Positions 32,280-42,827 of a DNA stretch of 46,138 bases are shown in pieces. The stretch covers positions 1 through 46,138 of IMG/VR virus record IMGVR_UViG_3300034374_010341; one strand, given 5' to 3'. The notes beneath the pieces were generated by a model, which ran no database searches, had not been told where the DNA came from, and saw only the letters and a program-made list of their open reading frames with translations. The position numbers and the translations under genes were made by a program. The stretch is from a virus. The first letter of the stretch is position 1. Every line of letters starts with the position of its first letter.

Positions 32280-32821
32280 GACTTTCGCCTGTTCTGCTTA
32301 GCCCATGGACGGCCTGGGAATTCACGGTCTATGGCCTCACTCACGACGACGCCGCCCGAAGCCTCCCACTCCTGGAAGTGTCTGCTCTGAGAGCGATAGG
32401 ATAAATCGTTAACTGCTCGTCCGATATCCTGGCTGGCCTTGATCGCCTGGGAGTAGTCCTTAAAGCTTCCGAGGTAGTCATTTAGCGCCTTACTGTGCTG
32501 GACCATGAGATCACGCTTTCTAGCTAGAACCTTCTCAAAAAGCTGCTTCTGGCCTTCCTCAACCCCGTTGTCGTTACCTGCCTTTTTCGGCAGGGCGTTG
32601 TTGAATTCCGCTGGCTTGGGAAAGTATTGGTTGGTAGCTTTCAATCGGTTGATAGCTTCTCGGCAATCAGCCAATGGCTTGCCCTCTGCCTGCTCGAGAA
32701 TTCCCGTTATCTTGTCCGGCAGCTCCCGTGTGCCGTGCCAAGCCGTTCTTGCAGCCTGGTTGAGATGATCCTGGAAAGCAATCATGTGAGCGCTGCCAGT
32801 TCTGCAAATCTCCTGCATCAC
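32276..32821 (-). CDS. Hypothetical replication-region protein
   Basis: An unrecognised 181-residue, mostly helical protein. The place directly after a DnaD/O-like gene is where phages encode helicase loaders (lambda P slot), but I see no ATPase motif. It contains FPKPAEFNNALPKK and a long helix to the C-terminus, ending basic (AKQNRRKS). A replication accessory role is inferred from position. Confidence 0.55.
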   Translation of the reverse strand: MMQEICRTGSAHMIAFQDHLNQAARTAWHGTRELPDKITGILEQAEGKPLADCREAINRLKATNQYFPKPAEFNNALPKKAGNDNGVEEGQKQLFEKVLARKRDLMVQHSKALNDYLGSFKDYSQAIKASQDIGRAVNDLSYRSQSRHFQEWEASGGVVVSEAIDREFPGRPWAKQNRRKS

Positions 32822-33408
32822 GCCTCACCTCCCTCTGACAGCCAGCCTTGCTTTTCAAGGGTGTGGATGAGCCCAGCTTCAACCATGTTGTTTTGCTGCC
32901 AGACTTCCCAAGTCACGCTATCAATCAGGTCAGGACAAGGATTAGCGATCTCGCGCGCGCACGCGTTATTTCCTTCTATCTTCTTTAAACTTCTTAATAT
33001 TCCTTCTTTAGCAAGTTGCGGTGAAGTTGCGGTGAAGTTGTCATCAGGTGCAGGCTTCAAGTTGTCGTGCTGTTTGTCAGCCTGATATTCCTCGTATTTA
33101 CAAATAGTTATGAGGCGTTTCTTTTGAGTTACTTTAGAAGCAATCATTTTTTGATTTTCCAGCAAAACGCGGAAATTCCTCGATTTGGTATTCCCCCACC
33201 CCCAAAGGTCCATAAGTTGCTTATCAGAGTAGTAAAGCTGCCCTCTTTTGACTGGTACGACCACATGAGAATTGGGCGCTCTCTGCTCTGTATCCTGCCA
33301 GGCAGCAACAGCTATGAGCTTGAGAAAGTTGTATTGCTCGAGCGGATCTTTAAGGATTTTGTGGTCCATCAAAGATCGATAATATTTGATGTATCCCCCC
33401 TTACTCAT
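32818..33408 (-). CDS. Replication initiator-like protein (O/DnaD type)
   Basis: 196 residues from the ATG for MSKGGYIKYYRSLMDHKILKD (33408). This opening and the later LYYSDKQLMDLWGWGNTKSRNFRVLLENQKMI block are typical of the winged-helix N-terminus of phage DnaD/O-like replication proteins; the middle ITICKYEEYQ segment is also characteristic. The C-terminal part is variable, as in initiators that bind iteron-like origins. The origin may lie within the gene; GTTGCGGTGAA is repeated at about 33015-33040 inside it. Confidence 0.7.
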   Translation of the reverse strand: MSKGGYIKYYRSLMDHKILKDPLEQYNFLKLIAVAAWQDTEQRAPNSHVVVPVKRGQLYYSDKQLMDLWGWGNTKSRNFRVLLENQKMIASKVTQKKRLITICKYEEYQADKQHDNLKPAPDDNFTATSPQLAKEGILRSLKKIEGNNACAREIANPCPDLIDSVTWEVWQQNNMVEAGLIHTLEKQGWLSEGGEA

Positions 33409-33718: not shown

Positions 33719-33944
33719 CTGAGGGATCCCTTAGCTTGAACTCACCACACCAATTCTGAGGCGGAACAGATGGATTTAAAACGCTCATTCCGGCCCCGTG
33801 CATATGAATTGACGGAGGATATCTCATGCACAAACCTTCCACATCCCCATTGTAAAAATCCTTAACTTCATGACTGAGGTTGGACGCAAAAAAGTGGCAT
33901 TTTCGACACTCGGGCCTAGCTGGTTTTTTTCTTAGAAACCTCAC
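33708..33944 (-). CDS. Small cysteine protein
   Basis: 78 residues with a GTG start overlapping the previous stop. CRKC near residue 14, GLCMRYPP near 38 and NWCGEF near 65 form a four-cysteine pattern shared by small phage proteins from alphaproteobacteria and suggest a metal or Fe-S site. Function unknown. Confidence 0.65.
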   Translation of the reverse strand: MRFLRKKPARPECRKCHFFASNLSHEVKDFYNGDVEGLCMRYPPSIHMHGAGMSVLNPSVPPQNWCGEFKLRDPSDDQ

Positions 33945-34114
33945 GCTCTCACTCCTTCCGCGCGCAATTCCTCAGCGCGTTTCATAAATCGATTGAACTC
34001 TTGCAACACCTTTGGACACACAGAACAGTTCCAGTTACTGCCTCCGTTGTCGTTGGTCGCGTGCTTGATTGGGAACTTGTCCCATTTGCATAAATTGGGC
34101 TCTGGGAGGCTCAT
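33941..34114 (-). CDS. 57-residue cysteine protein
   Basis: ATG overlaps the upstream stop (ATGA), and the stop overlaps the downstream GTG. Three cysteines (Cys9, then CSVC at about 30-33) and a C-terminal basic helix suggest a small zinc-binding protein. Confidence 0.6.
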   Translation of the reverse strand: MSLPEPNLCKWDKFPIKHATNDNGGSNWNCSVCPKVLQEFNRFMKRAEELRAEGVRA

Positions 34115-34320
34115 GACTGCTCTCCCACGAGTTCAATAACCAACCTACCGTCCTTCATGTAAGCACGTGCAGTGCCAACATGAGGCATAGACTGACCGTC
34201 AACGGTCATAGGCGGGGCCGTAGGGGCGTTTGTTCCGTCTGGGGCCTTAAAGACCCTATTGAGGACTAAACCGCATGAGGTTTGGTGAAATGGGATATAA
34301 AGGGGGCTCTCTGGCGTCAT
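34111..34320 (-). CDS. Small protein under structured RNA leader
   Basis: A 69-residue protein of unknown function, proline-rich at the start, then a strand-like MPHVGTARAYMKDGRLVIELV end. Its AGGAG ribosome site, 7 bases before the ATG, is perfectly complementary to a segment of the upstream RNA (see 34328-34532), so its translation is probably controlled by RNA folding. Confidence 0.6.
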   Translation of the reverse strand: MTPESPLYIPFHQTSCGLVLNRVFKAPDGTNAPTAPPMTVDGQSMPHVGTARAYMKDGRLVIELVGEQS

Positions 34321-34327
34321 GACGCTG

Positions 34328-34532
34328 CTCCTACAGATGTTTTAACTAAACCCGCAAAGAGCGCTTCCAAACGCAACAAAGCGGAGTGCACCAAGTTGGA
34401 AGACAGGCTCTGTAGGAGACCTGCAAGCCTTTCGGCTTCTCGATACACTCCGCTATGTAGACACAAATATAGCGCCAAAATCAGAGTATACCGCGGCGCT
34501 TGTGCACCTACAGAATTAGTTCCGGCTTCCAA
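34328..34532 (-). ncRNA. Candidate bistable RNA leader / thermosensor-like switch
   Basis: Read on the minus strand, a central strand CTCCTACAGA-x6-CTTCCAA (34418-34396) can pair downstream with TTGGAAG (34370-34364) and TCTGTAGGAG (34337-34328), which includes the ribosome site of the 34320 gene. It can pair instead with an upstream copy, TTGGAAG (34532-34526) plus TCTGTAGG (34514-34507). Both pairings are correctly nested and mutually exclusive. A third fold closes AGCGGAGTG with CACTCCGCT around a stem AAGCC-GAAA-GGCTT with a GNRA loop. What it senses is unknown. Confidence 0.6.
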
Positions 34533-34634
34533 CCCGAGTAAGCAGAATTTGCTGCTCAACGAGTTAAACTTAGCGCTTATTGGTTGACTTTTCAAGCCTG
34601 TTGTTTTTTGCTTGAGCTTTAAAGGGAGGGGACT

Positions 34635-34889
34635 GTGGATCTTGACCCACGAACGATAGGGCAGCTTACAGGTGGCGTTCTTGTGACACTGGTTTTCATA
34701 AAGCTTACCGCACGATGGCACCGAAACTGGCCATCTAAGATCCTTAAGCCCTTTGTTGTATGCCTTGCCCTCAGTTCTGTTTTTACCAGCATCTATGCTT
34801 TTAGCACCGGCGTTTATCAGCCAGGGTATATCATCGCCGCCGTTGTCGTTGCTCTGGGCTGGACAGGCTGGAATTTCGCGAGACGATAG
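34635..34889 (+). CDS. Small membrane protein on opposite strand
   Basis: 84 residues from GTG, with a strong GGGAGGGG site 4-8 bases upstream. Three hydrophobic segments at about residues 10-24, 39-57 and 63-80 and a basic C-terminus (NFARR). It lies inside a block of minus-strand genes and is followed by a second tiny membrane gene. The overlapping 224-residue frame on the other strand has no protein-like composition. Confidence 0.6.
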   Translation: MDLDPRTIGQLTGGVLVTLVFIKLTARWHRNWPSKILKPFVVCLALSSVFTSIYAFSTGVYQPGYIIAAVVVALGWTGWNFARR

Positions 34890-38626: not shown

Positions 38627-38750
38627 AACCTCTCTCCTTAAAAGCTACTAGAGCGCTGTAATAAGTCTCATACTCTGCGACCAGCCGGTCGCCGTTCCAG
38701 ATCTGGCCTTTGCCTTTGTTGGGGCCGTTCTTGACCTGGACTAGCTTCAT
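38604..38750 (-). CDS. 48-residue hypothetical protein
   Basis: ATG overlaps the methyltransferase stop (ATGA). The basic start (KLVQVKNGPNKGKGQIWNGDRLVAEYETYYSALVAF) suggests a small SH3-like barrel followed by a helix. Unknown. Confidence 0.55.
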   Translation of the reverse strand: MKLVQVKNGPNKGKGQIWNGDRLVAEYETYYSALVAFKERGCDPIRNQ

Positions 38751-39547
38751 GCGGCTTTCTCCTGATGCTCTCTTTCTGCTTCAAGAATAGCGCGGCCTAT
38801 GATTTCAGGGATTTGGGGAACTACGGCGTTACCGAGGGCTCCAACTCGGTCCATAAAGGTGGGAAGCCCATCATCTTTTCTATGATCACGGTAGTTTCCG
38901 GCATCGTAAAGCCTAGAGCTAAGAAAATTGGCCAAGCCCTTACTTGGTGCGTTGACCTTAAGCGCTGCGACTTCAGTTGTGTTGAAACTTTGAAACGACC
39001 GATTGTCAAGGCGTCCGATTTTAGAGGTGTAGGCAACAACCCAGACTCTCTCTCTGCTATGGGGAGCGCCCAAGGCTGCCGCTGGTATGTTTTCCCATTC
39101 AGCATCATACCCGAGGCCGGCCAAGTCCGCGAGTATTCTTCCAAACCACCGTCCTCGCCATTCGCTTGGGCCACTAAGCAAGTTTGCGACGTTTTCCACA
39201 ATGATGTATTTCGGTCTAAGCTCGCTAGAAAGTCTAACGATTTCGGACCACAACCCACTTCTTGTGCCTTCCTCAATGCCATCTTTTTTCCCAGCAACGC
39301 TGATGTCTTGGCAAGGGAACCCCCCTGTAATGACATCAACGGCAATTCCATCGGAAGCAAGCTTTGTGGCTGTGAGTTCTCTAACATCGTCATAAATAGG
39401 CACCTCTGGCCAATGCTTTTTCAATACTTTTTGGGGAAAGGGCTCAATCTCGCAAAAGGCGACTGTTTCAAATCCCCCCGTTCTCTCTAGGCCTAGAGAA
39501 AATCCGCCGATTCCCGCAAAGAGATCAAGGACACGTAGCTTGTTCAT
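38747..39547 (-). CDS. DNA (cytosine-5) methyltransferase
   Basis: A 266-residue C5 methyltransferase. Motif I FAGIGG at 10-15, motif IV PCQ with catalytic Cys79, motif VI ENV at 118-120, motif VIII RERVW at 165-169 and motif X GNAV at 239-242 are all intact. The target-recognition region between VIII and X is short (about 65 residues). No restriction partner is near, so it probably protects phage DNA from host nucleases or alters expression. It overlaps rusA by 4 bases. Another open frame of 190 codons is nested inside it. Confidence 0.92.
   Translation of the reverse strand: MNKLRVLDLFAGIGGFSLGLERTGGFETVAFCEIEPFPQKVLKKHWPEVPIYDDVRELTATKLASDGIAVDVITGGFPCQDISVAGKKDGIEEGTRSGLWSEIVRLSSELRPKYIIVENVANLLSGPSEWRGRWFGRILADLAGLGYDAEWENIPAAALGAPHSRERVWVVAYTSKIGRLDNRSFQSFNTTEVAALKVNAPSKGLANFLSSRLYDAGNYRDHRKDDGLPTFMDRVGALGNAVVPQIPEIIGRAILEAEREHQEKAA
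38821..39393 (-). other. Nested 190-codon frame inside the methyltransferase gene
   Basis: On the same strand but another frame, it begins at ATG 39393. Its C-terminal part (TWPASGMMLNGKTYQRQPWALPIAERESGLLPTP) resembles a motif I recall from phage proteins annotated near C5 methyltransferases. It may be an overprinted gene, or only the shifted reading of motif VIII. No independent ribosome site was found. Confidence 0.25.
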
Positions 39548-41893: not shown

Positions 41894-41922
41894 TTTATAT
41901 AGGTTTTTACCTACATCGTCAA
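41894..41922 (-). promoter_or_regulatory. Leftward early promoter (PR-like)
   Basis: The minus strand has TTGACG, 17 bases, TATAAA. The operator TAGGTAAAAACCTA fills most of the spacer, so repressor binding would block polymerase directly. It drives the Cro-like gene and the minus-strand early genes. Confidence 0.8.
41900..41913. promoter_or_regulatory. Repressor operator O1
   Basis: TAGGTTTTTACCTA, with 5-base arms TAGGT/ACCTA around TTTT. Identical to the copies at 42777 and 42806. Confidence 0.8.
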
Positions 41923-41932
41923 TGAGAAAACA

Positions 41933-41946
41933 TAGGTTTATGCCTA
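41933..41946. promoter_or_regulatory. Repressor operator O2 (variant)
   Basis: TAGGTTTATGCCTA keeps the outer TAGG/CCTA. It lies next to the putative -35 box of the repressor gene, where it could mediate autoregulation, as OR sites do for PRM. Confidence 0.7.
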
Positions 41947-41947
41947 T

Positions 41948-41976
41948 TTGCCTGTAAGCTTGTTTCTAAATATGTT
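41948..41976 (+). promoter_or_regulatory. Repressor promoter (PRM-like), leaderless
   Basis: TTGCCT, 17 bases, TATGTT. The expected start of transcription, 6-7 bases after the -10 box, falls on the ATG at 41983, and no ribosome site is present, so the mRNA is probably leaderless, like lambda cI from PRM. Confidence 0.5.
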
Positions 41977-41982
41977 GCTGCG

Positions 41983-42654
41983 ATGATTCACAAGGACAAA
42001 TTGCGCGCGTTGATTAAGGACTCCGATTACTCCAATCGGTCCCTGTCGCTAGCTGTTGGGACAAATCCAACGCTGATCGCTGACATATTCAAACGCCCAT
42101 CAGGCAACGCAACGCTAGACAAGCTGTCTGCGCTTGCGTCAGCTCTCGGCTGTTCAATCTCTGACTTTACTGACTACTCCGAGGCGACCGCGCCAGAAGA
42201 CGAGCTAGAGAACCTAAATAGAGACTACATTGCTTTGGTTGGCTCTGTGCAAGCGGGATCGTGGAGGGAAGAAGCTGCCACTCCACAAGACGTGATCCAA
42301 TTAGGACTTGCCTTTCCTGATCTCCCGAAGCCTCAATTTGCGTACAAAGTTGAGGGAGAAAGCATGAACAAGCATGCACTGCCTGGTCATTTTTGGGTGT
42401 GCCACGCTTACGAGGATGCTAACAACGAGGCTGCATCTGGCCACTTCGTCGTGGTTGAGCGTTCACGAGGACAGCTGATTGAACGAACGGTTAAGAAATT
42501 AGTGTTTTCATCGAACGGAAACATGGAATTCTGGCCTGACTCCCATGACGACAATTGGCAAAGCCCGTACATCCCAGCCGAAGTTACAGGCCAAACTGAC
42601 GAGACTTATAGAATCATCGCTAGAGCGCGCATAGTGCTAAGCGAACGCCTTTAA
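41983..42654 (+). CDS. CI/LexA-like self-cleaving repressor
   Basis: 223 residues. The N-terminal HTH spans about 1-65 (LIKDSDYSNRSLSLAVGTNPTLIADIFKRPSG). The C-terminal S24 peptidase domain has the probable cleavage pair Ala91-Gly92 in GSVQAGSW, the catalytic Ser127 in GESMN and Lys171/172 in the RTVKKL strand. It should hold the lysogenic state by binding the TAGGTTTTTACCTA operators on both sides of its gene, and be inactivated by RecA during the SOS response. Confidence 0.9.
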   Translation: MIHKDKLRALIKDSDYSNRSLSLAVGTNPTLIADIFKRPSGNATLDKLSALASALGCSISDFTDYSEATAPEDELENLNRDYIALVGSVQAGSWREEAATPQDVIQLGLAFPDLPKPQFAYKVEGESMNKHALPGHFWVCHAYEDANNEAASGHFVVVERSRGQLIERTVKKLVFSSNGNMEFWPDSHDDNWQSPYIPAEVTGQTDETYRIIARARIVLSERL

Positions 42655-42776
42655 CTGCCCATACTCCTCCCAAGTCAAGGCACGTCGCCCCTGCCCCCGC
42701 CATCCCCTAAAGCGGTGAGAGCCTCACGCAATAAAGAGACATATGGACAAATGCGCGTGTTGTTTTTTTTGGAATG

Positions 42777-42790
42777 TAGGTTTTTACCTA
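42777..42790. promoter_or_regulatory. Repressor operator O3
   Basis: TAGGTTTTTACCTA, 15 bases before O4 and just upstream of the -35 box of the rightward early promoter. Identical to O1 and O4. Confidence 0.8.
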
Positions 42791-42798
42791 TATTTCTG

Positions 42799-42827
42799 TT
42801 GACAATAGGTTTTTACCTATATATTGT
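42799..42827 (+). promoter_or_regulatory. Rightward early promoter with operator O4
   Basis: TTGACA is followed by 17 bases and TATTGT (TATATT begins two bases earlier). Operator O4, TAGGTTTTTACCTA, lies at 42806-42819 inside the spacer, the same design as the leftward promoter. It drives the recombination operon. Confidence 0.8.

Follow-up and report, generated by a model that had tools for sequence, protein, structure and literature searches.

A divergent C4-type antisense RNA module, apparently ahead of a replication operon, in a temperate phage

What kind of RNA device precedes the ORF that starts at position 34320 on the minus strand of a 46,138-nucleotide viral stretch (IMG/VR record IMGVR_UViG_3300034374_010341; here, the window)? 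The original prediction, made from sequence alone, saw between 34328 and 34532 a possible bistable riboswitch or attenuator of no known class: a central strand that pairs with either of two partners, both carrying TTGGAAG and TCTGTAGG in nested order, of which only the downstream one masks the ribosome site. We found the two alternative partners to be described correctly to the base. Uninterrupted Watson-Crick pairing of the central strand extends over 8+8 nt upstream and 10+7 nt downstream, nested on both sides; the downstream partner, with its 10+7 perfect pairs, does cover the ribosome site, the Shine-Dalgarno AGGAG lying inside segment b2 with a gap of 7 nt to ATG 34320 (Table 1). The predicted third fold, a 9-bp closing stem with a GCCGAAAGGC arm inside, is also there, and is the structure of C4 antisense RNA.

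A cmscan of the window placed RF01695 (C4 antisense RNA) at 34460-34379 on the minus strand, covering the full model (1-87) with E 6.9e-7 and 50.5 bits, a score that barely exceeds the family's cut-off of 45. The features of the family are recognisable: a' is unpaired, b' lies in a loop (where about half of it is predicted to be paired), and both are complementary to downstream a2/b2 segments covering the ribosome site. By chance, 7+7 nt matching the C4 segment in order arose in 387 of 20,000 shuffles of the upstream flank and 133 of 20,000 of the downstream flank; both flanks used the same C4 segments in 0 of 20,000. That no known riboswitch class fits remains true of riboswitches and aptamers, none of which matched the window in Rfam 15, but a known antisense-RNA family does fit, and the claim of a riboswitch or attenuator of no known class falls to it. 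What stands is an RNA device controlling the 34320 ORF, by pairing over the ribosome site and with a competing upstream partner, though not one of a riboswitch class.

Table 1. Features of the C4 locus and its operon in window coordinates, with the Gifsy-1 locus in record coordinates
Feature	Position	Strand	Description and basis
Candidate promoter of C4 transcript	34567-34595	minus	TTGAAA, 17 nt, TAAGTT; 8/12 consensus matches; weak
Leader hairpin with AGCAGCAAATTCTGCTT	34539-34560	minus	resembles start of c4-a1b1 leader
a1 TTGGAAG	34532-34526	minus	upstream target of C4 a'; complementarity; same relative place in P1
b1 TCTGTAGG	34514-34507	minus	upstream target of C4 b'; complementarity; P1 b1 as counterpart
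Weak terminator-like hairpin	34461-34500	minus	AGCGCC...GGCGCT then ATATTTGTGT; sequence inspection; place of IsrK terminator in relatives
C4 antisense RNA	34379-34460	minus	closing stem 34454-34446/34388-34380; GAAA arm 34438-34425; second arm 34424-34403
b' antisense element CTCCTACAGA	34418-34409	minus	loop of second C4 arm
a' antisense element CTTCCAA	34402-34396	minus	predicted unpaired in C4 fold, unpaired probability 0.94-1.0
a2 TTGGAAG	34370-34364	minus	downstream target of a'; complementarity
b2 TCTGTAGGAG	34337-34328	minus	downstream target of b'; contains Shine-Dalgarno of 34320 ORF
69-aa ORF, putative C4 target	34111-34320	minus	position of P1 icd (73 aa); b2 at its ribosome site
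57-aa ORF	33941-34114	minus	ATGA-coupled to 69-aa ORF; position of ant1; no family
DnaD-like helicase loader	32818-33408	minus	same operon; phrog_2514 E 3.3e-21, scanned from longer start 33441
Gifsy-1 locus L039 (NC_010392.1 33150-34400)	C4 34214-34131; isrK 34316-34240		

C4 and its a1/b1 leader have been described as phage motifs (PMC2864571, PMC5320573), Weinberg et al. including 'c4 antisense RNA' and 'c4-a1b1' in their motif list (PMC2864571). In P1, RNase P processing goes with a GG start and a CCACC 3' flank; the window has neither, showing AGCGG... and CCGCTT in their place. The GG and CCACC ends accompany the C4 family and are not part of what defines the Rfam model. The c4-a1b1 leader model RF03163 (cut-off 46.7) was not reported in the window at E<=1, though a1 and b1 are present by complementarity. 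Overlapping the leader hairpin there is only a weak match to isrK (RF01394; 34558-34466, 19.4 bits, below the 50-bit cut-off); a second weak isrK match (13.8 bits) occurs elsewhere in the window, and such matches are found in 13 of 14 control genomes.

Conserved homologues with covariation had been proposed as a check, and 12 further loci provide them: in P1, Gifsy-1 and ten IMG/VR contigs we found a'/b' elements with complementary downstream targets in several letter sets, antisense and target letters having changed together. The ten viral loci came from pattern scans and all score above the RF01695 cut-off; two of them (L033 and L034) are near-identical to a third (L028). Because b2 falls out of register in the MAFFT alignment A1, we counted target pairs by complementarity at each locus. 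Among the ten viral loci, P1 and Gifsy-1, a'/a2 and b'/b2 each come in no fewer than four different letter pairs, with CTGTCAA/TTGACAG, CTTCCAA/TTGGAAG, TTACCAA/TTGGTAA and ACGCCAA/TTGGCGT among the former and TCACTAAC/GTTAGTGA, CTCCTTGAC/GTCAAGGAG, TCCTTGAGTA/TACTCAAGGA and CGGTGAT/ATCACCG among the latter. Since the letters differ in concert across loci, the pairing covaries. Downstream matches are perfect over 6-10 nt at every locus, with b2 directly before a start codon; a1 lies upstream at all of them, and b1 is weaker in several. Phage and plasmid collections yielded no near relatives of the region, the exact central strand did not occur in other viral contigs, and 14 viral loci with a related helicase loader had no C4. 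Family match, complementarity, overlap with the ribosome site and covariation support the assignment at the sequence level, and we are confident that the locus is an antisense RNA module of the C4 type in a temperate phage, acting as set out below. The C4 family is itself known; the window copy is a divergent addition to it. What had looked like a new riboswitch class thereby gives way to a divergent C4 module whose target is apparently an early replication operon.

We wondered how far the RNA would in fact be bistable. The 241-nt minus strand folds with z = -4.3 relative to shuffles. Folding of a 261-nt RNA gave -102.0 for the free fold, which pairs a1 with a', and -101.9 for the C4 fold, so that the two tie; mean probabilities are 0.78 for the C4 closing stem and 0.21 for a1:a'. 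The nested cis fold onto a2/b2 comes to -88.1, about 14 kcal/mol worse, and the three predicted folds are thus not equally likely. Such predictions vary with construct length and come from a pseudoknot-free model: once the 3' flank is left off the window precursor, the C4 fold reaches P = 0.98, and it is dominant in eight of nine shorter precursors, the window's included. Only that of L030 has a1:a' more probable than the C4 fold. Conserved bistability as a family-wide rule was rejected, the nested a1:a' fold lying about 1-8 kcal/mol above the C4 fold across the nine precursors.

The near-isoenergetic pair in the 261-nt RNA would suit a leader that acts in cis, its central strand flipping between a1/b1 and a2/b2 within one molecule and no small RNA being set free; so would the two conformers and compensatory mutations reported for Gifsy-1 isrK-orf45 (PMC4825925), an RNA that is itself a C4 precursor. 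We consider such a leader unlikely, given the cost of the fold that would mask the ribosome site, the dominance of the C4 fold in shorter precursors, and the action in trans of P1/P7 C4 (PMC5320573, PMC12197685). Of the term 'bistable', published experiments support the use only for that relative, a C4 locus, and the window folds depend on length; bistability of the window RNA is possible in these models, not established. A ligand-binding riboswitch or attenuator of unknown class would likewise be a structured leader terminating at a ribosome site, but a full-length antisense-RNA match, no riboswitch match in Rfam 15 and target complementarity that covaries across relatives make it very improbable. 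It is equally hard to credit a coding reading in which the repeats are codons for a protein of 224 aa (34991-34317, minus): the frame is open through the region, but it has no family match, overlaps an opposite-strand ORF and stops at the controlled start codon, and the match to an RNA family, together with the covarying targets, accounts for the sequence.

The C4-type module would be carried by a single minus-strand transcript, probably starting near 34560, in the order a1/b1, C4 and a2/b2, the last of these where the early operon begins. The candidate promoter is below the promoter-scan threshold; P1 has TTGACC-N17-TATAGT at the same place relative to its leader hairpin, the counterpart hairpin there, GTAGCAAATTCTGCGAC, also being in the same place. 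The terminator-like hairpin, compared with L031, Gifsy-1 and P1, was not picked up by the terminator scan. A CI operator at the C4 promoter was considered and rejected: no CI-operator-like palindrome is found there, the exact TAGG-N6-CCTA sites lying at 41900-42819 and none near 34560. These four exact palindromes (41900-41913, 41933-41946, 42777-42790 and 42806-42819, with TAGGTTTTTACCTA three times) flank the S24-type repressor gene and are possibly its operators. Directly upstream of the candidate promoter, on the opposite strand, is an 84-aa ORF (34635-34889, plus) with hydrophobic stretches and no family match.

Downstream, the 69-aa ORF matches nothing in PHROGs or Pfam and has no relatives in viral contigs. 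Its stop overlaps the next ATG (ATGA), a coupling shared with P1, whose record annotates the immI operon as a1, b1 (putative target sites), C4, a2, b2, icd and ant1, the icd stop overlapping the ant1 start. No Ant-like family was recognised among the operon ORFs; an antirepressor may yet be among the small ORFs (57, 78 and 105 aa). The order of the operon suggests that C4 may control the helicase loader. Integrase and S24-type repressor genes mark the record as that of a temperate phage; among phages the closest TerL, that of Rhizobium phage RHph_X3_2, shares 56% identity, and bacteria gave only distant TerL matches. Elsewhere in the window are a DUF3800-VIII RNA (RF03075; 29296-29361, minus, 57.6 bits), on the same strand as C4, and a C-5 cytosine DNA methyltransferase gene (38747-39547, minus).

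By analogy with P1/P7, whose C4 acts in trans once processed (PMC5320573, PMC12197685; processing and target mechanism are summarised in PMC5320573), the C4 part would fold by itself, be cut out and act in trans. Its b' loop would pair with b2 and hide the Shine-Dalgarno of the 69-aa ORF, a' pairing with a2 for specificity. Translation of this leader ORF would be blocked, and with it, through the ATGA overlap and polarity, that of the genes behind it as far as the DnaD-like helicase loader; the block would presumably keep the lysogen silent. The a1/b1 copy may act as a competitor for a'/b', either in cis or after release as a short, terminated leader RNA, and so relieve repression, as the analogy with IsrK of Gifsy-1 suggests. 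Promoter, processing, trans action, polarity and the antagonist role of a1/b1 are all parts that we infer.

Gifsy-1 bears on that antagonist role. Its isrK (79.3 bits) is followed 25 nt downstream by a C4 RNA (69 bits), the AUG of 'orf45' falls inside this C4, and a2 and b2 are in the stretch preceding the anrP start. With isrK nt 1 set at the first base of the Rfam match, all isrK-orf45 bases that we checked (G28, G31, A107, G114, AUG 119-121, C159, C162, G173 and C175) fit the published numbering, and the compensatory pairs of that study, G28-C162 and G31-C159 (PMC4825925), are exactly a1:a'. C159U and C162U give high basal expression (PMC4825925), which on our reading is expected from lost C4 repression. 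The Gifsy-1 IsrK/orf45 switch is thus a C4 locus, a link absent from the searchable, non-subscription literature: PMC4825925 mentions neither Rfam, Citron, bacteriophage P1 nor C4 antisense, and in that same literature only a Xylella paper has both isrK and 'C4 antisense', its table placing them adjacent in one strain. In L031 (7694-7890), the isrK and c4-a1b1 (RF03163) models match overlapping sequence just upstream of C4; isrK is listed outside the C4 clan. With the published Gifsy-1 mutants a test of a1:a' pairing already exists, and in their light the a1/b1 element of C4 systems, so far unexplained, can be read as an antagonist. This identity is the most useful by-product of the analysis, the interest of the window itself being modest. 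We tentatively propose, as a possibility short of even odds, that C4 operons are three-RNA switches in which attenuation releases the a1/b1 leader (IsrK in Gifsy-1), which titrates C4, that the published 'orf45' is largely C4 RNA, and that in the window what the device gates is a replication operon, not an antirepressor. If so, repressor RNA, antagonist and target would all come from one transcript.

How does the window compare with known systems? With P1/P7 (C4, RF01695; a1/b1 leader, RF03163; icd-ant operon) it shares the order a1-b1-C4-a2-b2-short ORF, the closing stem with two arms, the unpaired a', b' in a loop and b2 at the ribosome site; it differs in its a'/b' letters, in being without the GG...CCACC ends, and in its second ORF, which is no recognisable Ant and is followed by a replication gene. 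With Gifsy-1 isrK-orf45-anrP (RF01394) it has in common a leader with a1, then C4 RNA, then a2/b2 at the ribosome site, whereas in Gifsy-1 a strong terminator follows the leader (IsrK sRNA) and an AUG lies within C4 (orf45), where the window has a weak hairpin and lacks such an AUG. C4 loci of elements carrying DUF3077, Ogr and Toprim genes (L003, L027-L029, L034 and similar) have C4, a1 and a2/b2 like the window, but their target letters differ and their ORFs show no recognisable homology to those of the window; in L003 the Ogr-like and Toprim (primase-like) operon genes were family-checked, L027-L029 and L034 being alike by sequence. What follows C4 in the window is apparently a DNA-replication operon, with no recognisable anti-repressor gene; Ogr-like and Toprim genes follow C4 in L003-like loci, so the window is not alone in having a replication-type operon there. 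Satellite phage P4 makes a CI RNA with seqA/seqC as targets, one upstream and one downstream; as described in PMC4825925 it is processed, acts as an antisense RNA and silences replication genes, features that by description would be shared with the module proposed for the window. A difference is that P4 CI works through transcription termination.
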